A stretch of 64,000 bases of DNA, from NCBI GenBank assembly GCA_022180565.1, contig BQML01000031.1, forward strand, positions 1-64,000, read 5' to 3'. Positions within the stretch are counted from its first letter, which is position 1, and every line of letters starts with the position of its first letter. The notes under the pieces are model-generated. The model worked only from the letters and a program-made list of their open reading frames with translations, ran no database searches and was not told the DNA's origin. A program made the position numbers and the translations under genes. Shown here in pieces: positions 1-27,176 of the stretch. Origin of the DNA: Bacteroidia bacterium (GTDB taxonomy: Bacteria; Bacteroidota; Ignavibacteria; UBA10030).

Positions 1-701
1 AGGCGGCCTGAACACTCAATCTCTGGTCGCCCAAATATGTCTTGACTTTCGGGGGTCAGTACACACACGTCCCGGCCATACATAACAGAAACGCTTTCGT
101 AGAGGCGCTCAAACGTCATGGATTGGAATTTTTGATTAAAAGCCTCTGAAAGCCGCTGGATGGCCTTGTGCTCCTCCACGTTTGGTAGGTTTGTGTTGGA
201 ATAGAGGAGCAGCTCGTAACTATCGGCCTCTTTATAATGTGATTTATTGAGTTTCGCAATCTTGTCGGCGATCGCGACCAATGCGAGCTTTGCCCATTCC
301 TCGAGGGCCTCGCTTTCTGGAAGTCCTGGACCGGGATCATAGAGCATTCCGCCACTTTCCCTGATTTTCTTGCCGAGATAGGTTAGGTTCTTCTGCCATT
401 GTTCTGTGGAAACATCGGTATGTTCGAGGCCAATGGTAGTCCCATCTTTTAAGGTTATTTGGAAGTCCGGACACTCAGACTTGCAAATAGAGAAAGGGAA
501 TTCGTTTGGATTGTGCTCGACGAACGACTGTAGGTAATGGATCGCGCAATAGCGCTCCCTGTGAAATGATTTTCGTCCAAGATCCCTTGGTGGAACGGTG
601 AGATCAAGTGACGCGAGGGTAGTATTGAAATTATCGCGACTTCTGAAAGAAAGGCAATCGCCCTCATTCTGCAAGAAGTCTGATCTTGGGGAGTTATTCA
701 T
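1..701 (-). CDS. Unknown protein, cut by the left edge; candidate integron cassette gene
   Basis: Reading the minus strand from an ATG at 701 gives an open frame with no stop to base 1, so at least 233 residues with the C-terminus missing. An in-frame TAG lies about 18 bases upstream, which limits the start to this ATG or a TTG at about 710. The protein begins MNNSPRSDF. Near residues 72-95 it reads ICKSECPDFQITLKDG followed by TIGLEHTD. The pattern PDF - short loop - IGLEHT resembles the core of PD-(D/E)XK-like nuclease folds, but I cannot assign a family. No signal peptide or membrane segment is visible. It is transcribed away from the integron-type integrase at 887, as the first cassette of an integron would be. 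The frame is real by codon pattern; function is unknown. Confidence 0.7.
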   Translation of the reverse strand, partial: MNNSPRSDFLQNEGDCLSFRSRDNFNTTLASLDLTVPPRDLGRKSFHRERYCAIHYLQSFVEHNPNEFPFSICKSECPDFQITLKDGTTIGLEHTDVSTEQWQKNLTYLGKKIRESGGMLYDPGPGLPESEALEEWAKLALVAIADKIAKLNKSHYKEADSYELLLYSNTNLPNVEEHKAIQRLSEAFNQKFQSMTFERLYESVSVMYGRDVCVLTPESQDIFGRPEIECSGR

Positions 702-886
702 TAGGCGCAACGCCAGCTAACCTAGGCTTAAACCTAAGGGAGGTACACTAATGTGAAACGGGGAATGTTAGTGAACCCCCACTTGCGGGTAATGTGCGAA
801 TTTCTATATTATGGCGGGTAAAGTCAAGTCCGCTCGCCCCGGGGGGCCTACGGCAACCACAATTCCATCCAAAAAAGGGGGGAACC
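702..886. other. Spacer between integrase and divergent gene; candidate attI/Pc region
   Basis: In integrons the recombination site attI and the cassette promoter lie between intI and the first cassette, as this spacer does. On the minus strand GTTAGCT (715-721) matches the core site GTTRRRY at six of seven bases, just before the start of the divergent gene. I could not recognise a full attI or attC (R/L boxes), so this is a positional suggestion only. A small hairpin-like CCC..GGG lies near 776-789. Confidence 0.3.
783..810 (+). promoter_or_regulatory. Putative promoter of the integrase gene
   Basis: TTGCGG (783-788), a 16-base spacer and TATATT (805-810) lie about 76 bases before the integrase ATG. 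The -10 is good and the -35 is moderate compared with the TTGACT form seen elsewhere in the window. Confidence 0.4.
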
Positions 887-1933
887 ATGCAAAAAACCAA
901 ACTTCTCGACCAGGTCCGCGAGGTCATCAGATTCAAACACTTGAGCCTCAGAACAGAAGAGGCTTATGTCTACTGGATTAAGCAGTTTATCCTCTTCCAC
1001 AACAAAACCCACCCCCAAACCATGGGCGAAAAAGAAATCCGACAATATCTCTCTCACCTCGCAACGGATAAAAACGTCGCCGCATCAACACAAAACCTGG
1101 CCCTCAATGCAATCATGTTTCTCTATAAGCAAGTGCTCAGAAAAGACCTCGGGACGCTGGGCGAAATCGAACAGGCGAAAAAACCCAAAAAACTGCCGAC
1201 GGTGTTTTCGCAAAATGAAGTTCTGATGATCCTGAGCGCCATGGAAGGTACACCACAACTGGTGGCAGGCTTACTCTACGGGGCGGGGCTAAGACTCATG
1301 GAATGCCTGAGACTACGCGTCAAAGACATAGACTTCGAGCGAAATCAAATCATCGTCAGAAGCGGAAAAGGCGAAAAAGATCGCATAACGCTGCTTCCGG
1401 AAACAATGAAAGAACCACTGAGGAAACATCTGGAATGGGTGAAACAACTTCATCAGAAAGACCTCGAAGACGGCTTCGGCGATACCTACCTCCCCCCGTC
1501 TCTGCTCCGAAAACACCCGCGGATGGCCTATGAATGGCCCTGGCAATATGTCTTCCCCGCACTCGAACGGTCAAATGACCCGCGATCAACAAGAATCGGA
1601 CGACATCACTTCCCGGAACTCAAAATCCAAATGGCCGTCAAACAAGCCCTCGCCAGTGCCAACATCCCGAAACAAGGAAGCCCGCATTCCTTCCGCCACT
1701 CGTTCGCAACCCATCTGCTCGAACAAGGACAAACCATCAGAGTGGTCCAACAACTGCTCGGTCATAAAGACGTGAGAACCACGATGATCTATACGCACGT
1801 GATCCAACGACCCGAAGCACCGGTGAAAAGCCCCCTGGATACAAACATCTCACAATCACTCACAGTGCTCAAAAGCACTTATCACCGCAAACAACTCCCC
1901 AAACCGAATCGCCTCATGAACCCCAATCCTTGA
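887..1933 (+). CDS. intI: Integron-type tyrosine recombinase (IntI)
   Basis: A 348-residue site-specific recombinase that would insert and excise gene cassettes at attI/attC sites. The start ATG at 887 is preceded by AAAGGGGGG; an in-frame ATG at 794 has no such site. An N-terminal SAM-like DNA-binding domain (1-100) is followed by a catalytic domain with R136, K161, H267, R270, H293 and nucleophile Y302. These lie exactly ten residues before the equivalents of class 1 IntI1 (R146, K171, H277, R280, H303, Y312). The IntI-specific insert between K and H-R-H is present (WPWQYVFPA at 218, then DPRSTRIGRHH at 231), which separates it from XerC/D. It ends in the usual SPLD motif plus about 30 extra residues. 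It stops five bases from the convergent isomerase gene. All catalytic residues are intact, so it is probably active. Confidence 0.93.
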   Translation: MQKTKLLDQVREVIRFKHLSLRTEEAYVYWIKQFILFHNKTHPQTMGEKEIRQYLSHLATDKNVAASTQNLALNAIMFLYKQVLRKDLGTLGEIEQAKKPKKLPTVFSQNEVLMILSAMEGTPQLVAGLLYGAGLRLMECLRLRVKDIDFERNQIIVRSGKGEKDRITLLPETMKEPLRKHLEWVKQLHQKDLEDGFGDTYLPPSLLRKHPRMAYEWPWQYVFPALERSNDPRSTRIGRHHFPELKIQMAVKQALASANIPKQGSPHSFRHSFATHLLEQGQTIRVVQQLLGHKDVRTTMIYTHVIQRPEAPVKSPLDTNISQSLTVLKSTYHRKQLPKPNRLMNPNP

Positions 1934-1937
1934 AGTC

Positions 1938-2420
1938 CTAATGCGCCCCGCCCGGACCATGCACATGACCATGACTGAGCTCCTCCGCAGTCGCTTCGCG
2001 AACGTTGACAACCTCCACCTCGAAATTCAAGGTCTTGCCTGCAAGGGGATGATTCGCATCAATCGTTACTGTGTCTTCACCAACCGCCGTCACCGTTACG
2101 ATCTGGCTCCCCCCGCTTCCCCCCTCGGCACGAAACTGCATCCCTACCTCCAACACTTCCACCCCCTCAAACCTGTCGCGCGCAACACTCACTACGCGCT
2201 TCTCATCCCTCTCCCCATATGCATCCACAGGACGAACGGAGACCTTGAAGGTGTCCCCGGCCGATCGACCGTCGAGAGAACTCTCCAAACCCGGAATGAT
2301 GTTCCCCATGCCTTGAATGTACGACAAGGGCTCACGACCATTCGACGTATCTATGACTTCTCCTCCCTCATCGGTCAGAGTGTAGTTGATCGTCACAACA
2401 CTGTTCTTTGCTATCTTCAT
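1938..2420 (-). CDS. slyD: FKBP-type peptidyl-prolyl isomerase, SlyD family
   Basis: A 160-residue cytoplasmic prolyl isomerase and chaperone. The FKBP half-domain (1-70) has the typical start VTINYTLTDEGGEVIDTS and the PLSYIQGMGNIIPGLE stretch. An insert-in-flap domain spans about 70-120. The return strand NHPLAGKTLNFEVEV (123-137) is a SlyD signature. The tail SHGHVHGPGGAH is a short histidine-rich stretch that may bind nickel, as in longer SlyD tails. Start: two adjacent ATGs (2423 and 2420) follow GGAGAGG; the second has better spacing, while a farther in-frame ATG at 2435 would place the ribosome site inside the gene. It converges on the integrase and has its own putative promoter at 2515-2542. 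Confidence 0.9.
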   Translation of the reverse strand: MKIAKNSVVTINYTLTDEGGEVIDTSNGREPLSYIQGMGNIIPGLESSLDGRSAGDTFKVSVRPVDAYGERDEKRVVSVARDRFEGVEVLEVGMQFRAEGGSGGSQIVTVTAVGEDTVTIDANHPLAGKTLNFEVEVVNVREATAEELSHGHVHGPGGAH

Positions 2421-2438
2421 CATTTTCCTCTCCATTAT

Positions 2439-2493
2439 GAACCTTAAACCTTAAACCTTGAACTTTAAACCTTGAACCCATACCTTCAACCTA
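2439..2493. repeat. Degenerate 7-base repeats (ACCTTAA / ACCTTGA)
   Basis: Direct repeats of ACCTTAA-like units upstream of the slyD start. The same motif recurs at 57617-57653 and, more degraded, at 22098-22158. They are non-coding and their role is unknown. Confidence 0.8.
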
Positions 2494-2514
2494 ACAATCC
2501 CGCGGAAACATGCC

Positions 2515-2542
2515 AGAATAAAATCACAATACGCACTGTCAA
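2515..2542 (-). promoter_or_regulatory. Putative slyD promoter
   Basis: On the minus strand TTGACA (2542-2537), 16 bases, TATTCT (2520-2515), about 95 bases before the slyD start and abutting the stop of the upstream gene. Confidence 0.5.
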
Positions 2543-3589
2543 TTAACGAAACGGATACCCCACATACTCCCTCGACCACTCTCCCTCAATAGTCAGCTCC
2601 TCTTGGTAGCGCTTGGCAGGATTGAAAAACAACGCCCCCAACGTGCCTTTTTGCCAATACAAATCCAAGGCGAACGGCGAAATGCCCCGGTCTGAACCGA
2701 AAGGACCGCTGAAATTGTCGGCATCGTAATACCGAGGAACCGGCGCGTCCACGAGCTCATCCTTATACCTCCAAATGCCGTCAAATAACTTCCCGTCACC
2801 CGTAACCTCCCCGCGCCGTACCAATGGCCAAAGCCGGGCCAACGTGGATTCCAACTGATACGGAACCTCCCCGCGCTTATACGACTTCGGCTCCCGCACT
2901 TCTTCAGCACCGCGAACCGGCCTGAACAACAGTCCACTCCCGCCTTCAAAGGAATACAGACTGTCCCTCTGAAAATGAACGTCGCTGTCTGAATCCAGTG
3001 TTCCATAGATGCCGTGGCCGTGAGACTCGACGAAAACCGCAACGTGTGTGCCAAAAGGACTCGGAATCCCTGCGTCGTCTACAGTCTGGAACTCTCCCGT
3101 GATATCGAATTCCCCCGAGGCGATGCCGGAATAGGAATTGACGTACACATCGCAAGCATAGTGCGCCTGCGTCCAAAGAAGAACGACCCGACCGTCCGAT
3201 TTGCGGACGACAACCTGGAGATTCTCCCCATCGTTTTCATGAGTGTCGTGAACGTAAAACGTGAACCCCGCCCAGTCCCGGGGATGAAACAAATGATACG
3301 AAATGAAATAGTGCGACCAGGTCTCCAGAACGGCGTAATACACCGTGGGTTTGAGATCATACAACTCGAAATTCTCCCAGTTGTTCTCGCCAATCAGATC
3401 CCCGTCGAAATCGATGTTCGTGATGATGTCCTGCCGCCCCTTGGTTTCGTGCGTGGCGTGGTAGATGTACGGAGCATAGCGGAGCGCAACAGCATACTGC
3501 TCGTCGCGAACCGCAGGAACACCCCGGTTGGGCTGTCGGGACGGGTCCTGAAACAGAAGTACGAAGAGGAGGATCAGAAAAGCCGGCAT
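2543..3589 (-). CDS. Secreted protein of unknown function
   Basis: A 348-residue protein with a short hydrophobic N-terminus (MPAFLILLFVLLF), so probably exported. No catalytic domain is recognised with confidence. Aromatic and acidic motifs are abundant: YAPYIYHATHETKG near 38, then IDFDGDLIGENNWEN near 59, then ETWSHYFISYHLFHPRDW near 88, then DTHENDGEN near 114, a possible metal or carbohydrate site. The order 'water/HPRDW - H-E-N-D - GE' faintly recalls Vps62/NPP1-like proteins with an HxxDWE-type motif, but I would not name it so. It sits alone between slyD and the permease genes, with its own promoter-like site at 3624-3652. Confidence 0.75.
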   Translation of the reverse strand: MPAFLILLFVLLFQDPSRQPNRGVPAVRDEQYAVALRYAPYIYHATHETKGRQDIITNIDFDGDLIGENNWENFELYDLKPTVYYAVLETWSHYFISYHLFHPRDWAGFTFYVHDTHENDGENLQVVVRKSDGRVVLLWTQAHYACDVYVNSYSGIASGEFDITGEFQTVDDAGIPSPFGTHVAVFVESHGHGIYGTLDSDSDVHFQRDSLYSFEGGSGLLFRPVRGAEEVREPKSYKRGEVPYQLESTLARLWPLVRRGEVTGDGKLFDGIWRYKDELVDAPVPRYYDADNFSGPFGSDRGISPFALDLYWQKGTLGALFFNPAKRYQEELTIEGEWSREYVGYPFR

Positions 3590-3623
3590 GGAAAAAGATG
3601 GAAAACGTCTGAATTCCTAAATG

Positions 3624-3652
3624 AATCTACGGATGAGTGAAGAGATGTGCAA
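3624..3652 (-). promoter_or_regulatory. Putative promoter of the secreted unknown
   Basis: On the minus strand TTGCAC (3652-3647), 17 bases, TAGATT (3629-3624), 35 bases before the ATG at 3589. Confidence 0.4.
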
Positions 3653-3653
3653 T

Positions 3654-3700
3654 GAAAAAGGAAAAGGGAAAAGGGAAAAGGGAAAATGGAAAGGAAAATG
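3654..3700. repeat. Purine tandem repeat (GGGAAAA units)
   Basis: Four or more copies of a 7-base GGGAAAA-like unit in the spacer after the permease gene at 3724. It belongs to the same class of 7-base purine arrays as 9939-10012 and 21991-22096. Confidence 0.85.
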
Positions 3701-3723
3701 AATAAGGCGATGAGTGCGACGAA

Positions 3724-4965
3724 CTACTCGTATCTCAGAGATTCCACAGGATCGACCGATGCGGCTTTACGGGCAGGGAAGAAGCCGGCCAGGAGACCAA
3801 TGAGCGTGAGAATCCCCGTCGTGAGGAGAGTCGTGCTTGCCGATAGAATGGGCTTTCCAAGAAACTGCATAGCGCCGTCGTCGGATGGAAGAAGACGAAC
3901 GACGGAGACAATGCCATAGGAGATCGCCAGACCCACCACCCCCCCAAGAGCGGCAAGAAGCAACGCCTCAAAAATGAATTGTGCCAGAATATACCTCCGC
4001 CGCGCCCCGATGGCCATCTTGATGCCGATCTCGCGGGTCCTCTCCTTCACCACAACATACATGACATTCGCCACCCCGACACCGGCAATGAGAAGGGTGA
4101 GGAAACCGACCGAGAAGAGGAAGATCGAAACGCCCAAACCAATCCTCCGGCTGATCTTCTCGCCTTCGATGAAATCCCAAATGCCCAGCGCCCGCTCATC
4201 GTCCGGACTGAACTTATACTTGCGGCCGAGAATCCTGTACAGATCGGACTTTACTTCTGCCTGTTTGCCGGGATCGGTGGGACGAATGACAATACTGTTG
4301 ACAAACGTACTGCCGTAGGATGTCTTGAAGGTCGAGTACGGAATGATGGCCCGGCGGGTGTCCGGACCGTTGTTCATCGATGTCTGGATCTTCTTCTGCA
4401 TGATCCCGATGATCGTAAAAGGAACGCCGTCAACCAGAATGGTCTTGCCGACCGGGTCCTCGTCCTTGAAGATCTCCTTCGCAATGACCTCGCCCAGGAA
4501 CAGTACGCGGCGTTGAAGCACGACATCCATCTCGTTCAGAAACCGACCTCCCGCGGCGGGATACATGCGGCGCATTTCTTCGAAGAACGGATTGACACCC
4601 TCGCATTCCGTGGTGACCGAATACTTCCCGTAGGTGAGTGTGATGTTCTTGCGATACTGCGGACTGATCATGTCGATCGCCGGCACGATGCGGTCGAGCA
4701 GTTCGGCGTCCTCCTCGAGAAGACGAATACGACGGCCCTTGGGAAGGCCTTCATGAACCATGCCGGTCTCGCCGCCGTACACCACAAGAATGCGGTCGCC
4801 GGCGTTGAGCAAACCGTTCATCATCTGAGTGCCCAACCCGTCGCCGAAGGAGAGGAGGAGGACCACCGCGACCGTGCCCCACGTGATGGCAGCCAGGGTC
4901 AGCATGGCCCGCGTGCGATGGGCCTTCAGATCGAGAAAAAAGTCTTTAAGAAGTTCGAGCCACAT
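3724..4965 (-). CDS. ABC transporter permease, MacB/FtsX family
   Basis: A 413-residue inner-membrane permease of the MacB/LolCE type, likely half of an efflux or lipoprotein-type transporter that transmits force to the periplasm. There is one membrane helix at about 22-42, a periplasmic MacB-PCD domain (about 45-270), then three helices at about 278-308, 330-356 and 378-400. Conserved features are the cytoplasmic loop RTREIGIKMAIGARRR and the C-terminal PARKAASVDPVESLRYE, both hallmarks of the family. It is the last gene of an operon with a second permease and a membrane fusion protein. No ATPase gene lies in the window, so the transporter needs a partner from elsewhere. Confidence 0.9.
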   Translation of the reverse strand: MWLELLKDFFLDLKAHRTRAMLTLAAITWGTVAVVLLLSFGDGLGTQMMNGLLNAGDRILVVYGGETGMVHEGLPKGRRIRLLEEDAELLDRIVPAIDMISPQYRKNITLTYGKYSVTTECEGVNPFFEEMRRMYPAAGGRFLNEMDVVLQRRVLFLGEVIAKEIFKDEDPVGKTILVDGVPFTIIGIMQKKIQTSMNNGPDTRRAIIPYSTFKTSYGSTFVNSIVIRPTDPGKQAEVKSDLYRILGRKYKFSPDDERALGIWDFIEGEKISRRIGLGVSIFLFSVGFLTLLIAGVGVANVMYVVVKERTREIGIKMAIGARRRYILAQFIFEALLLAALGGVVGLAISYGIVSVVRLLPSDDGAMQFLGKPILSASTTLLTTGILTLIGLLAGFFPARKAASVDPVESLRYE

Positions 4966-6461: not shown

Positions 6462-7552
6462 TACTCTATCTTCTTCACCGGCTTCTCCGCCACCTCATCC
6501 CCTTCCTTCAATCCCTCAAGGACTTCAATGCTGATCGCGTCGCTTAAGCCGGTCTTAATCACGCGTTCCTCTTCCTGCTGAGGTCCCAGGGCCACCTTCA
6601 CAAAGGCGGAATCGTTTCGAAATGTGACGGTCCGTTCCGGGATCGTCAGAACATCCGTTTTCTTGTTAATGATGATGTTCGCATTGGCCGAATACCCCGC
6701 CCGGAGCACGGTGTTCTTGGAGGCCGGAATGAGAATCTCAATCGGAAACACTGTGGCATTGTCCTTCTTCTCGGCTTTGAGCCAGATCTTTCTCAAAACC
6801 CCCTTGACGGTGTCGTTCGGAAGTGCCCCGACTTTCAGATCGGCTTCCATCCCTTCCCTGAGTCTGCCCACGTCGATCTCGTCCACCGTTCCCTTGAAAA
6901 TGAGCCTCTCCATGTTCGCCATCTTCATGAGCACCGTGCCTTCTTGAAACGTTGTAAGAGGAGTGACGGGATCACCGACCTCCACGGTGCGACTAAGAAC
7001 AAAACCGTCGATTGGAGCTTTGATGATCGACTCGATCTGCGTCTTGCCGATCATCACCCTGCCGCTTTCAAGCAGAGCCAGCTTTTCACGGCTGATCTGG
7101 AGCTGAAGCATGGCCTCGTCATATCGCCGCACAAAATCCTCATATTCCTTCTGGGAAATGAGCTGGGCCTTAATGAGGGCTTCCTGTCGGGTCTTTTCCT
7201 TGGTCAGGTTGTCCACCTCGACTTCCCGAAGCTCGACCTGGCGTTTGGCATCGGCGAGTTCGAGGGGCGTCGGGTCGGGCTTGACCTCGAGAAGCGGATC
7301 TCCCGCCTTCACGTATGTGCCGACATCGGCGAAGATCCTCTTGACCACGCCCGTTACCTTGGATTTGACCGAGACCTCGTTCTCGGGCTCGATCGTGCCC
7401 ACAGCAAGAGCCTTGTCGACGATCGTCCCCCGGACAACCTTGACGCGGGGAAGCATGGCTTCGGCCGATTCATTGGATCCGCCGAAAAGGAACACGGCAA
7501 CGATCACGAGAGTAACGATGACTATGGTGGGTACAATGACTTTTTTCTTCAT
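6461..7552 (-). CDS. Membrane fusion protein (MacA/HlyD family periplasmic adaptor)
   Basis: A 363-residue adaptor linking an inner-membrane exporter to an outer-membrane channel. The start is set at MKKKVIVPTIVIVTLVIVA (7552), which gives a normal short anchor; an ATG at 7579 is also possible. The order is an N-terminal helix, half of a lipoyl domain (GTIEPENEVSVKSKVTG, then DVGTYVKAGDPLLEV), a long alpha-helical hairpin rich in Glu/Lys/Gln, the second lipoyl half (IIKAPIDGFVLSRTVEVGD), then beta-barrel and membrane-proximal domains. It is the first gene of the operon with the two FtsX-like permeases at 5097 and 3724. No outer-membrane channel (TolC) is seen nearby. Confidence 0.9.
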   Translation of the reverse strand: MKKKVIVPTIVIVTLVIVAVFLFGGSNESAEAMLPRVKVVRGTIVDKALAVGTIEPENEVSVKSKVTGVVKRIFADVGTYVKAGDPLLEVKPDPTPLELADAKRQVELREVEVDNLTKEKTRQEALIKAQLISQKEYEDFVRRYDEAMLQLQISREKLALLESGRVMIGKTQIESIIKAPIDGFVLSRTVEVGDPVTPLTTFQEGTVLMKMANMERLIFKGTVDEIDVGRLREGMEADLKVGALPNDTVKGVLRKIWLKAEKKDNATVFPIEILIPASKNTVLRAGYSANANIIINKKTDVLTIPERTVTFRNDSAFVKVALGPQQEEERVIKTGLSDAISIEVLEGLKEGDEVAEKPVKKIE

Positions 7553-20211: not shown

Positions 20212-21971
20212 CCGGGACAGAGCAGACACAACACGAGATGACCTTCCGCGGTATTGCCGCCTCAGCGGGCATTGTTTGGGGGCCGGCGTACATCTTTCAG
20301 AAGCAGACCCCGGTGATCAGTGAAAAGTCGGTAACGGCAGGGGACCTGGATGCCGAGATCCAGCGCCTGCGATCAGCCGTGGACCGCTCACGCAAGGAGC
20401 TGGCGAAGATCTACGAGTTTGCCAAGCAGAAACTCGGCGATCACCAGGCAAAGATCTTCGAAGCTCAGCTGATGATTCTCGAAGATCTGGTGCTCTTTGA
20501 GGCAATTGTGAAGCGCATTCTGGCGGAACAGAAGAATGCGGAATATATCGTCCACGATGAGATTGAGAAGTACCGGAAGGTCATGGTGGCGGCGAACGAC
20601 GAGTACACGCGGGAGCGGGCGCTGGATGTGGAGGATGTGCGCAATCGGATTCTTCGGAACCTCCGTGATGAAAAACTGATATCCCGTCTCGACGGCTCTC
20701 CGGTTATCGTTGCCCCCAATCTTGCCGCGGCCGATGCGCTCATTCTGAGCCGCAACACGATCCTTGCCTACGTCACCGAAGTCGGCGGCGTCACCTCGCA
20801 CATGGCCCTTCTTGCACGCGCTCTCAAGATCCCCGCCGTCGTCGGCTTGCGACAGTTCACCTCAGCGGTACACAACGGTGACAGAATCCTCGTGGACGGG
20901 TACGGCGGCATCGTCGTGGTCAATCCCTCTCCCGAGACCGTCAAGGCCTATGAGGAAAAGAGGGAGAGGTACCGGGAGTTCGAAGAACGTCTGGCGGGAC
21001 TGCGAGATTTGCCCGCGGAAACGCCGGACGGGCGCCGGGTCGAACTCAGCGCGAACGTGGAGCTGGCGGAGGAACTGGAGTTCATCAAACTGCAGGGTGC
21101 CGACGGGATAGGATTGTACCGCTCGGAATCGCTCCTCCTGGGCCGCGAGGTGTTTCCCAACGAAGACGAGCAGTACCGGGAATACCGGATGCTCGTCGAT
21201 ACGATGTATCCGAAGCGGGTCGTGATCCGCACGTTCGATATCGGCGGTGATAAGTTCATGACGTCGCAGACCTCGCGAGAGAACAATCCGTTCCTGGGTT
21301 GGCGCGGGATCCGCGTCATGCTCGATCGTCCGGAAATCTTCCTGGAACAACTGCGCGCGATCCTCCGCGTGAGCGACCGCCGCACGGTCAGCATCATGTT
21401 TCCGATGATCAGCAATATCAAGGAGCTGCGCAGGGCGAAGGAACTGATTGAGGATGCCAAGGGACAACTGCGTTCGCGCGGAGTTGCATTTGACGACAAG
21501 GTGCGAATCGGCACGATGATCGAAGTGCCCGCCGCCGCGGTGATTGTGGAGGATCTTGCCCGCGAAGTCGATTTTATCAGCATCGGCACAAACGACCTCA
21601 TTCAGTATCTGCTTGCCGTGGACCGCGGAAACGACATTGTCTCAGGCCTGTACCAGGAGTTTCATCCCGCCGTGGTCCGATTTCTCCGAAGGATTATTGA
21701 ACGCGGAAGAGAATCCAAAGTGCACGTGGCAATGTGCGGCGAGATGGCAGGCGACCCTCTGGCGACCATCCTCCTGCTGGGCCTCGGCCTCGATGAATTC
21801 AGCGTCGTCCCGAAAGTCCTGCCGGAGATCAAGAAGATCATTCGCACGGTGAAATACCGCGATGCCAAGAAGATTGCGAAGAAGGCATTGAAGATGGTGA
21901 CCGAAGATGAGATGAAAAACTATCTGGCGGATGTCATGAAGGAATATTCGCCGGATATCCCGCGTGAATAA
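20208..21971 (+). CDS. ptsI: PTS enzyme I (PEP-protein phosphotransferase)
   Basis: 587 residues, normal length (570-590). It moves phosphate from phosphoenolpyruvate to HPr. The N-terminal HPr-binding helical domain (about 25-150) is followed by the swivelling His domain with the phospho-histidine H198 in GGVTSHMALLARALKIPAVVG. The PEP-binding barrel has GIGLYRSESLLL (near 301), FDIGGDKF, NPFLGWRGIR and the active cysteine region AMCGEMAGD near 507. The start ATG overlaps the ptsH stop (ATGA), so translation is coupled. Followed, after a repeat array, by the sugar-phosphate isomerase gene. Confidence 0.97.
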   Translation: MTGTEQTQHEMTFRGIAASAGIVWGPAYIFQKQTPVISEKSVTAGDLDAEIQRLRSAVDRSRKELAKIYEFAKQKLGDHQAKIFEAQLMILEDLVLFEAIVKRILAEQKNAEYIVHDEIEKYRKVMVAANDEYTRERALDVEDVRNRILRNLRDEKLISRLDGSPVIVAPNLAAADALILSRNTILAYVTEVGGVTSHMALLARALKIPAVVGLRQFTSAVHNGDRILVDGYGGIVVVNPSPETVKAYEEKRERYREFEERLAGLRDLPAETPDGRRVELSANVELAEELEFIKLQGADGIGLYRSESLLLGREVFPNEDEQYREYRMLVDTMYPKRVVIRTFDIGGDKFMTSQTSRENNPFLGWRGIRVMLDRPEIFLEQLRAILRVSDRRTVSIMFPMISNIKELRRAKELIEDAKGQLRSRGVAFDDKVRIGTMIEVPAAAVIVEDLAREVDFISIGTNDLIQYLLAVDRGNDIVSGLYQEFHPAVVRFLRRIIERGRESKVHVAMCGEMAGDPLATILLLGLGLDEFSVVPKVLPEIKKIIRTVKYRDAKKIAKKALKMVTEDEMKNYLADVMKEYSPDIPRE

Positions 21972-21990: not shown

Positions 21991-22096
21991 AGTAAGAAGT
22001 GAGAAGTGAGAAGCGAGAAGTGAGAAGTGAGAAGCGAGAAGTGAGAAGCGAGAAGTGAGAAGCGAGAAGCGAGAAGTGAGAAGCGAGAAGCGAGAC
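21991..22096. repeat. 7-base tandem array GTGAGAA / GCGAGAA
   Basis: About 15 units of G(T/C)GAGAA follow ptsI, with T or C at the second base in an irregular order. The array resembles the one after 9938 and the arms at 15106-15231. The continuation 22098-22158 (GAACTTGAATTC..CTGAACCC..GGACCC..) is a degraded array related to 2439-2493. Confidence 0.92.
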
Positions 22097-23215: not shown

Positions 23216-26019
23216 AGCATTTCCTCCTCGGGTGCGCGCTGTTGCTTGTGTGGACGAATCGTGCGGAGGGCCAGTTCTATTACTTCGGCCGAAACAAGGT
23301 TCAGTACACGGACTTCCGCTGGCAGGTGCTGAAGACCGAACACTTCGACATTTATTTCTATCCGGAGATGCGCGAGCTGGCTGAACGCGGTGCCGCGTTT
23401 GCGGAAGAGGCGTACGGGGAGCTCAAGCAGAAGTTCAATCACTCGATCGCCACGCGCATCCCTCTGATTTTCTACAGCTCCCACCTCCATTTCCAGCAGA
23501 CGAATATCACGCCGGGATTCATTCCGGAAGGGGTCGGCGGATTCTTTGAGTTCCTGAAGGGCCGCGTGGTCATTCCCTCCAACGGATCTACGGCGCAGTT
23601 CGCCCACGTCATTCGCCACGAACTGGTTCACGTGTTCACCGTCAGCAAGATCAATCGCGTTCTTCTGGATCACCGCCAGACACAGGACCGGACGCCTCCG
23701 CTCTGGTTCACCGAGGGCCTCGCCGAGTATTGGTCCACTGCCTGGGACACGCAGGCCGAAATGGTGCTCCGTGACGCCGTGCTGAATAATTATGTCGTGC
23801 CGGTCAGCTCGATGGACAGGATCTCCGGAAGCTTCCTGATGTACAAGGAAGGACAACAGATCTGTGAGTTCATCGCCGAGCGGTACGGCGAGGAAAAACT
23901 CCTCCTCCTCTTCGAAAATTTCTGGAAGGCGTCCTCCTTCAGCCAGGTCCTGAAGCACACGATCGGAAAAGACTATGAGGAGTTCGACGAGGAATGGATG
24001 TACTATCTGAAAAAGCGCTACTATCCCGTGTTGGAAGGTTCCGACCTGCCGAGCGGCGTGACGAGGAAAATTGTGGACGAAGGATTCAACAACAAACCGA
24101 TCTTCTACGCTCATAACGGAAAACGGGAGCTGTATTACATCGGGAATTACACGGGGTATACCAGCGTGTACCGCGTGAACCTCCTTGAAAAGAACCCGGA
24201 CCCGGAAGTGGTGATCAAGGGCGAGACGTCGGATGAGTTTGAAGCATTTCATCCGTTCCAGAGCAAACTCGATATTTCCAGGGACGGCATGCTCGCCTTT
24301 GTCACCAAGAGCGGAGAGAACGATGTTCTCCACCTCTACAATATTCCACAGGAGGAACTGGCGGAGACGATCAGATTCAAGAGTCTGGTTGTTCTCGGCT
24401 CACCCAGCTGGTCGCCCGACGGGAAACGGCTGGTGTTCTCGTCGATCGACAAGTCCGGAAACAACGACCTGTTTCTCTTTGACGTCGGATCGCGCGATCT
24501 GGTGAAGCTTACAAACGATTTCTATGATGACCGTGACCCCGCTTGGTCGCCCGACGGCTCGACCATCGTATTCAGCTCCGACCGCACGCCCCATGGAAAG
24601 CAAGGGCAGTACAACCTCTTTACGCTCGACATGAAAACGCTCGCCATTCGGTACCTTGCCGCGGGACCCGAGAGCTACTATGCGCCCGTCTGGTCTAAAG
24701 ACGGCCGGTGGCTTGCGTTCACGTCGGACAAGGACGGGGCGCAGAACATCTGGATGATGGACATGAGCACGGAGGAGAGTCGAAAATCAATGCGAAAAAT
24801 CACTTCGTTCTCCACCGCTGCGTTCGATCCGGCCTGGGGAGACGAAGGGGAGATGTACTTTGCATCCTTTGAAAATTTCAGCTTCCGACTCCGGAGCATT
24901 GATGATGTCCTGACCCGGTACGATTCGTCCGCCGTCATCCATTCGTTTGCCGTTCTCCAGGATGGTCAACACTGGACCGTCCATGGCCTCGAGGGAGAAG
25001 CCGTCGTGGAACGATTTGATTATGAGGGGGATTACCAGCTCGACATTGCCCAGAGCCAGATTTCGGTCGATCCGGTGTTCGGTACAGCGGGCGGAGCCGC
25101 CCTGGCCATGAGCGATGTGCTGGGAAACGATCTCTATTATTTTCTGATCTACAACACCGCGCAAGCGTCGTCCGAGCTCCTGGAGAGCTTCAACATTGCT
25201 ATGTCCCGCATTTCGCTCGGACAACGGGCAAACTACGCATACGGCATCTTCCATTTTTCCGGAAACCGCTACGACCTGACCGATCCCGACGTCTTTTATT
25301 ATGAACGATCCTTCGGCGGATATTTTGCCCTGAGCTATCCGCTCTCCAAGTTCCAGCGGCTTGAGGGCAACATGACGATCAGCAATTCGGACAAGGATAT
25401 TTACACCGGCGAGATCCCGCGCCGGGCACTGATGATCTCGAACGCTCTGTCGTTTGTTTGGGACAATTCTCTGTGGGGACCGACTGGGCCGCTCGATGGC
25501 AACCGTCTCAAGCTCACCCTTGCCTATACGAGCGATGTACAGTATTCCAATGTGAATTACTACACGGTGATCGCGGATTACCGATCGTACCTCCGCTTGG
25601 GAAACCGGTCGGCGTTTGCTTCGAGATTTAACCTCTGGTACAACGAAGGCCGTGAGGCGAGGCGGTTTTTTATGGGCGGGAGCTGGGACCTCCGTGGCTG
25701 GCGCCGATGGTCGATTCGCGGACAGAAACTCTGGATCACCAGTCATGAGCTCCGTTTTCCCTTCATCGACCAACTGGGCATTCGGTTCCCGTTTGGAGGG
25801 ATTGCCTTCGGCTCCATCCGCGGAGCCTTGTTTGCCGATTTCGGTGGCGCATGGGACCGCTCTTACCGGGAAACCCTCGGAAGCGTGGGAACGGGGATCA
25901 GAATGAACCTCGGGGGATTCCTCGTACTAAGATACGACATCGGCAAGAGGATTGAACAGAACCTCTCGAGATTCCAGAAAGGGATCTTCCATCAATTCTT
26001 CTTCGGATGGGATTTCTGA
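23212..26019 (+). CDS. Fusion of HExxH peptidase, WD40-like propeller and outer-membrane barrel
   Basis: 935 residues with a signal peptide (MKHFLLGCALLLVWTNRAEGQ). Residues about 35-280 form a gluzincin-like metallopeptidase module: HVIRHELVHVF near 140 gives HExxH and WFTEGLAEYWS near 168 gives the third ligand motif. Residues about 320-570 carry PD40/TolB-type propeller repeats (SWSPDGKRLVFSSID, AWSPDGSTIVFSSDR, VWSKDGRWLAFTSDK). Residues about 620-935 look like an Omp85-type barrel, with the strand GGSWDLRGWRRWSIRG near 823 and a C-terminal aromatic F. It is thus an outer-membrane protein with a protease and propeller that probably face the periplasm. It sits in an overlapping trio with a BamB-like lipoprotein and a PEGA protein. 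Confidence 0.85.
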   Translation: MKHFLLGCALLLVWTNRAEGQFYYFGRNKVQYTDFRWQVLKTEHFDIYFYPEMRELAERGAAFAEEAYGELKQKFNHSIATRIPLIFYSSHLHFQQTNITPGFIPEGVGGFFEFLKGRVVIPSNGSTAQFAHVIRHELVHVFTVSKINRVLLDHRQTQDRTPPLWFTEGLAEYWSTAWDTQAEMVLRDAVLNNYVVPVSSMDRISGSFLMYKEGQQICEFIAERYGEEKLLLLFENFWKASSFSQVLKHTIGKDYEEFDEEWMYYLKKRYYPVLEGSDLPSGVTRKIVDEGFNNKPIFYAHNGKRELYYIGNYTGYTSVYRVNLLEKNPDPEVVIKGETSDEFEAFHPFQSKLDISRDGMLAFVTKSGENDVLHLYNIPQEELAETIRFKSLVVLGSPSWSPDGKRLVFSSIDKSGNNDLFLFDVGSRDLVKLTNDFYDDRDPAWSPDGSTIVFSSDRTPHGKQGQYNLFTLDMKTLAIRYLAAGPESYYAPVWSKDGRWLAFTSDKDGAQNIWMMDMSTEESRKSMRKITSFSTAAFDPAWGDEGEMYFASFENFSFRLRSIDDVLTRYDSSAVIHSFAVLQDGQHWTVHGLEGEAVVERFDYEGDYQLDIAQSQISVDPVFGTAGGAALAMSDVLGNDLYYFLIYNTAQASSELLESFNIAMSRISLGQRANYAYGIFHFSGNRYDLTDPDVFYYERSFGGYFALSYPLSKFQRLEGNMTISNSDKDIYTGEIPRRALMISNALSFVWDNSLWGPTGPLDGNRLKLTLAYTSDVQYSNVNYYTVIADYRSYLRLGNRSAFASRFNLWYNEGREARRFFMGGSWDLRGWRRWSIRGQKLWITSHELRFPFIDQLGIRFPFGGIAFGSIRGALFADFGGAWDRSYRETLGSVGTGIRMNLGGFLVLRYDIGKRIEQNLSRFQKGIFHQFFFGWDF

Positions 26020-27176
26020 TGCTACAAAGCCGCGGAATCGGACCATTATTCCTTGCTGTCTTTGTTGCGACTGCGGCAGGTTGCTCCGGCATGCGCCTGA
26101 ACAAGGGACTTTCGCCGAGGCCCGCCGACTGGACCATGTACGGAGGCGGCCCCGCCCGCACCAATGCCCTGGGGACACACGTTCTCCCACCCTTCGAATT
26201 TCTTTGGGAATACAACGCGCAAGCCGGACTGAGCGCAACACCGCTGGTCAGCGACAGTACGATGATTGTTGGAACCCTCCGCGGCGAAATCCAGGCGGTG
26301 GATCTGCGAACAGGGAGAAGATTGGGATATAAAACGCTCGAACAGCCCATCGTCGGTACACCGGCCCTCGACGGCAGCAAGGTGATCCTTCCCCTGTCCG
26401 GACCGGAACAGAGTCTCATGTGTCTTGATCTGGCCGGGGGGAGGGAGGTGTGGGCCGCGGAGCTTGGACCGATCGAATCATCGCCGCTCGTACTTGGCGA
26501 TCACGTCTATGTGACCACGCTTCGCGGGACCGTGCATTGCCTCGACAAGGACGGCGGAAATCAGATTTGGAATTTCGACTCGGGAACAAAGGATCACAGA
26601 GAGGCGATCCGGTCTTCTCCGGCGGTGGAAGGACGTGTGCTTGCATTTGGCAGTGATGACCATTCGCTCTACGGGCTCGATCGCGAGCGCGGAATTCTCC
26701 TCTGGAAAACTCCCACCGGGGGAAGCGTGTTCGCGACGCCTCTGATGGTCGACGGTCTGGTGATCGCAGGCAATCTCGCCGGCGACGTCTATGCGCTCGA
26801 TGCGATGACCGGGGCCGTCCGGTGGACATACCGAACAGGATCCAAAGTGTATGCGTCTGCTTCGACCTCTCGGGGAACTGTGTTCATCGGATCCGCCAAT
26901 GGTGTTCTGCATGCGCTGGACGCGGTCTCCGGCGCGCTTCGCTGGACCTTTTCCACGGGAAGCGTCATCGGTTCCTCCGCTCTTGCGGCCGGGAATCTCG
27001 TGTATGTGGGAACGTTGAACAAGCGCCTTTACGCGCTGGACGCGGCCACCGGGCGGGAACGGTGGGGCTATGAGGCGGAAGGACGGATCAGGGTGTCTCC
27101 CGTTTTGTGGGGCGATATCCTGCTGGTGACGTCTGAAGACAAGTACATCACGGCGCTCAAGGCAAAAGGATCATGA
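26019..27176 (+). CDS. PQQ-propeller lipoprotein, BamB-like
   Basis: A 385-residue lipoprotein: the N-terminus MLQSRGIGPLFLAVFVATAAGC ends in a lipobox (ATAAGC), giving a cysteine at residue 22. The rest is built of PQQ-like blades, visible as repeated W/Y-A-L-D-A-x-T-G-x-x-R-W words (VYALDAMTGAVRWTYRTGS, LHALDAVSGALRWTFSTGS, LYALDAATGRERWGYEAEG). The start ATG at 26019 overlaps the previous stop (TGATG); an ATG at 26007 is also in frame. The family includes BamB, a part of the outer-membrane barrel assembly machine, and the neighbour carries a barrel. No quinone cofactor or dehydrogenase residues are implied. Confidence 0.88.
   Translation: MLQSRGIGPLFLAVFVATAAGCSGMRLNKGLSPRPADWTMYGGGPARTNALGTHVLPPFEFLWEYNAQAGLSATPLVSDSTMIVGTLRGEIQAVDLRTGRRLGYKTLEQPIVGTPALDGSKVILPLSGPEQSLMCLDLAGGREVWAAELGPIESSPLVLGDHVYVTTLRGTVHCLDKDGGNQIWNFDSGTKDHREAIRSSPAVEGRVLAFGSDDHSLYGLDRERGILLWKTPTGGSVFATPLMVDGLVIAGNLAGDVYALDAMTGAVRWTYRTGSKVYASASTSRGTVFIGSANGVLHALDAVSGALRWTFSTGSVIGSSALAAGNLVYVGTLNKRLYALDAATGRERWGYEAEGRIRVSPVLWGDILLVTSEDKYITALKAKGS

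Follow-up and report, generated by a model that had tools for sequence, protein, structure and literature searches.

The window, a stretch of 64,000 bases, corresponds to positions 1-64000 of C31. This contig measures 65,048 bases and belongs to the genome of an uncultured bacterium of the Bacteroidota-like group (G000), which comprises 3.0 Mb in 111 contigs and has a listed completeness of 100% and contamination of 0%. The first base of the window coincides with the contig end. GC content was 56% across the window, an Rfam scan of the window returned zero matches, and the FCB affiliation suggested in a preliminary description of this DNA found support in a T9SS PorZ gene within the window. 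The left edge was found to contain the following features.

1..63, plus strand: right end of an IS3-family insertion sequence (IS), terminating in ...GGGGGTCAGTACA, with the rest of the element beyond the contig end
64..720, minus strand: probable first gene cassette, 5' portion, which starts directly behind the predicted attI cleavage point and is truncated by the IS
66..710, minus strand: putative cassette ORF, starting at TTG 710 or ATG 701, 215 amino acids before the IS
712..733, minus strand: candidate attI core region, GTTTAAGCCTAG-GTTAGCT-GGC, with the core at 715-721; motif derived from ten relatives
722..886, no strand: spacer between intI and attI, the expected place, by its position, of the intI and cassette promoters
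887..1933, plus strand: intI, predicted integron integrase of 348 amino acids starting at ATG 887, assigned by TIGR02249, Pfam, its PDB relative, catalytic residues and tree

An in-frame GTG at 794, upstream of ATG 887, is unlikely to be the intI start. On its other side, intI is met by a convergent gene (1938-2435) encoding a SlyD-like FKBP peptidyl-prolyl isomerase, the two genes lying 4 bases apart at their ends; this side is ordinary chromosomal flank.

The product of intI scored 439.6 bits against TIGR02249 (integron integrase; cut-off 265), and 155 and 144 bits against the XerC and XerD models, whose cut-offs are 335 and 330, respectively. It possesses SAM_4 and Phage_integrase Pfam domains, and its top relative among solved structures (PDB) was Vibrio IntI4 (282 bits), with XerC/XerA-like chains at 112-114 bits; the closest single relative was a protein from a Calditrichia MAG (63% identity). 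Alignment with plasmid IntI1 (48% identity) paired R146, K171, H277, R280, H303 and Y312 of IntI1 with R136, K161, H267, R270, H293 and Y302, in agreement with the preliminary description, which had placed all six catalytic residues exactly ten positions before their IntI1 counterparts. The IntI-only insert also reported there (WPWQYVFPA...DPRSTRIGRHH) was seen in the protein. The phylogeny with XerC/D that had been proposed as a check was run by maximum likelihood and placed the window protein with IntI rather than Xer, within a 42-row integron integrase clade including IntI1 (support 100/100); the genome's own XerC (C5) and XerD (C20) and a recombinase encoded on C44 all fell outside this clade. 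Judged on its sequence, the window recombinase is an integron integrase, and no other integrase of the genome exceeded the TIGR02249 cut-off. The C44 recombinase (L002 650-1732) is IntI-like without the IntI insert and pairs with an archaeal MAG protein in the tree; genes similar to it look common in the order.

Outward of intI, relatives were found to share a motif, NCTAATC-N3/4-GTTARRC-CGC, located about 100-300 bases from the gene. When a matrix built on the sites of ten relatives, with the window left out, was applied to the window, GTTTAAGCCTAGGTTAGCTGGC (core 715-721, minus strand) ranked first of 255,912 placements. This rank alone is weak evidence, since the maxima of whole shuffled windows were often higher than the site score; shuffled windows attained the score at 1.1e-5 per placement, which corresponds to a p value of about 0.004 when the spacer is considered in the orientation expected of attI. 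The window score of 12.9 is below that of all relatives (13.9-26.8, leave-one-out). The GTTAGCT described earlier at 715-721 on the minus strand, one mismatch away from GTTRRRY, is present, and this mismatch is unremarkable because GTTAGCC occurs as the core of five attC sites in the same genome. The site agrees with the attI of relatives in its motif, its position and its orientation, and cleavage would be expected in G^TTAGCT. As for the cassette promoter Pc, the best outward match in the window spacer was not significant (P 0.11). A near-consensus outward promoter, TTGACA-17-TATATT/TAGATT, lies between intI and attI in the genomes G008 and G013 (L022, L027), where it is likely to be the cassette promoter.

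The ORF facing away from intI was listed as running from 710 (TTG) or 701 (ATG) to 3 on the minus strand, and the 185-base spacer that had been described between the two genes holds for ATG 701. It had also been stated that this ORF runs out of the window. It is indeed open at base 1, but base 1 is the end of the contig and the last codons, about 21, are IS sequence, because the first cassette gene is cut at window 63/64. Window positions 1-63 are 100% identical to C80:6478-6540 and, over 62 bases, to C40:1-62. The element belongs to the IS3 family, as indicated by an OrfA (HTH_Tnp_1) and an OrfB transposase (DDE, rve) typical of this family in the full copy on C80, a terminal ...CA and several copies (the full one on C80, ends on C31 and C40), and C31 stops at base 1 because this element is repeated in the genome. 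Domain and family searches assigned no family to the ORF product, two weak relatives (25-27%) were retrieved among 395 genomes of the phylum, and a single-sequence structure prediction was unusable (pLDDT 39).

Of 100 genomes searched (the present one and relatives), 23 had an integrase above the integron-integrase cut-off. Eight relatives offered enough sequence to look for an attC matching their attI. In each of them the attI core, read as its reverse complement, recurred as the R'' of an attC located 191-1537 bases outward, and the first cassette began at the core site (8/8). The relative G008, which belongs to the same family, carries intI and about 17 attC sites on one contig, on the expected side. 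A conserved location of the integron is not supported, since the genes flanking the window intI were absent from the surroundings of intI in the stretches compared from relatives. As each R'' complements the core at which its cassette starts, the attI core of the window predicts an R'' reading AGCTAAC. The attC of the first cassette itself is missing from the window because it has been cut off by the IS and the contig end; a pattern search of the assembly found no attC with this R'', which may lie in the sites cut by the contig starts of C72, C78 and C98.

The genome was searched for attC half-sites with the pattern CAGCTTA-N9-CGTTAGGC, refined to TTAGCTCC-N3-CCGTTA. This search recovered 30 lineage-specific half-sites on seven short contigs totalling 38 kb (C64, 4; C67, 4; C70, 3; C72, 6; C78, 1; C81, 8; C98, 4). 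Complete sites measure about 130-200 bases (NNNTAACCGGTCGCT...CAGCTTAGCTCCCAACCGTTANNC) and are of a type carrying CCGGTCGCT. In a scripted check of 23 neighbours, R'' was the reverse complement of the preceding R' core in 22; the lone mismatch was a spurious core hit on C67 whose true neighbour was concordant. Within each array contig the attC sites have a single orientation, and long cassette ORFs run in the array direction. A 47-column covariance model, made from 26 sites of other genomes, showed clear covariation (0/500 shuffles), which is partly a product of selection as these sites had been picked by their pairing. Our attC scan gave long attC low scores, and the model missed or weakly scored sites of about 150 bp; the half-site pattern recovered them. 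Taken together, these results show that true attC arrays with cassette structure exist in this genome.

At least nine cassettes of the arrays contain no ORF, with about 107 bases between attC sites, and most of them are of one sequence family. Their ends extend the attC pairing and their middle is conserved (AGCTCCGTGG). They were located at L173 4327-4438; L174 5044-5151 (reversed); L175 22-129, 280-387 and 3166-3273; L176 225-328, 478-585 and 737-845; and L177 3267-3374 (reversed). Such cassettes could be regulatory or RNA-coding. Others carry defence-like genes, namely a SIR2-like and HerA pair, a Ser/Thr kinase like PD-T4-6 and an OLD/GajA-like ATPase, at L174 (C70) 1015-4084, L175 (C72) 585-1919 and L177 (C98) 1028-2713.

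Integron sequences were also found on two further contigs. On C28, the C-terminal part of IntI survives as two fragments. Behind each of them, in the array direction, comes an attI-like site (18.9 and 14.6 in score), and farther on lie attC sites and genes that look like cassette genes (beta-lactamase fold, AHSA1, cupin, DUF4440 and type II methyltransferase); its integron features are at 2315-2446, 6804-6914, 4717-4776 and 1536-1625 of L146. A canonical 60-base attC on C28 was detected by the covariance model (35.4 bits, E 6.6e-6). C28 is open in the array direction, contig base 1 coming right after GCCTAA, a possible attC start. On C8 (L182, C8:15000-32000), an attI-like site at 22016 is accompanied by an attC (21604-21421) with an R'' that matches the core of this site, by R'' boxes at 20763 and 19193, and by an IntI fragment (25922-26197) in which the HxxR motif is absent; the attC boxes are of the main-array type. 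From their sequence features, C28 and C8 represent two decayed integron relics besides the intact platform of C31.

Several other explanations have to be weighed. A Xer-type housekeeping or phage recombinase would have the tyrosine-recombinase fold in common with the window protein, but the existence of separate XerC and XerD genes outside the IntI clade makes this identity almost inconceivable, and it was dropped since family scores, tree and insert all point to IntI. The minus-strand ORF might be an ordinary chromosomal gene next to an empty attI or a core matching by chance, a reading compatible with the ORF being nearly without relatives and with no attC lying beyond it on C31. We consider this improbable: the attI-like site is in the right place and orientation, the ORF begins just past the core, and the cassette stretch, with a GC content of 47.8%, resembles the array contigs (48-50%) in being low in GC. 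A chance core site was dropped on the same points, and the ORF is presumably a cassette gene. That the array contigs entered the genome bin as contamination, as their short length and their GC content vs 56% might suggest, is very improbable and was likewise dropped, because attC of the array type (TAACCGGTCGCT) also occur inside the 167 kb contig C8 and because this type resembles attC adjoining intI in the same family.

The more serious question is to which integrase the arrays belong. No contig of this assembly joins intI to an attC, C31 ending inside the IS. The platform could be nearly empty, In0-like, with intI, attI and one truncated cassette, the attC contigs belonging to another integron such as C28, whose array end is also open. 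No attC with R'' AGCTAAC in the assembly, and attI-like sites of their own on C28 and C8, would be in line with such an arrangement. We regard it as unlikely: IntI survives on C28 only as relics, and the clear attC there, 60 bp long, differs in type from those of the main array (130-200 bp), the array of C8 ends within its contig, and the window IntI is the genome's sole integrase over the family cut-off. We therefore favour, with a probability of about 85%, the reading in which a sedentary chromosomal integron has its integrase end at the left edge of the window and its main array beyond the IS, on the seven contigs. The integron platform proposed in the preliminary description is upheld by the integrase family and tree, by an attI like that of relatives, and by attC arrays present both in this genome and, next to intI, in eight relatives.

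According to this chromosomal integron model, and by analogy with the IntI/attC family, IntI would recombine attI (715-721) with the folded bottom strand of the attC of circular cassettes, new cassettes entering beside attI and pointing away from intI. The minus-strand ORF would then be the latest inserted cassette gene, and the IS3-family insertion that splits the first cassette at 63/64 would have come later. The repeat ended the contig, and the remaining array, with at least 30 attC, would have been assembled as the seven short contigs, which we infer to follow the first cassette of the window. The system is presumably active. It is tempting, if somewhat short of even odds, to propose that three distinct integrons have resided in this genome: besides the intact one on C31, with a main array of at least 30 cassettes that include phage-defence and multicopy ORF-less (maybe regulatory or RNA-coding) ones, there would be decayed ones on C8 and on C28, that of C28 with IntI relics upstream of attI in the array direction.

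This integron resembles the Vibrio superintegron type in that IntI is divergent from the array, attI lies beside intI, the many attC are near-identical and lineage-specific, and the cassettes are without known function, some with defence-like genes. It differs in its phylum, in its attC of 130-200 bp with a sequence of their own, in an attI with a lineage motif, in the IS-interrupted first cassette and in an array that is not contiguous in the assembly. Complete integrons have been reported in the Bacteroidetes/Chlorobi group, in Ignavibacteriae, Chlorobi and Salinibacter ruber (PMC9024848); the present one belongs to the same broad group, the likeness being at group level. G008, of the same GTDB family, is alike in its IntI (60% identical), attI motif, related attC type (CCAGGCGCTCAAGCTGACGG) and array side, whereas its array is contiguous with intI and its attI core is GTTATAC. 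Class 1 integrons share with it all catalytic residues of IntI1; in contrast, the present integron is chromosomal, has another attI, and no resistance cassettes were seen.

For a poorly sampled lineage, this defines an integron together with attI and attC rules specific to it. Without experiments, the motif drawn from ten relatives points towards attI sites, and the concordance between core and R'' offers a check on cassettes and broken arrays in draft genomes, in which arrays are usually fragmented. As about a quarter of the searched genomes carry an integron integrase, integrons are a regular source of gene turnover around this lineage. In L074 and L084 (Planctomycetia) and in L079 (Acidobacteria), attC-like sites were observed to follow intI downstream and to share its strand, which is the inverted integron arrangement.
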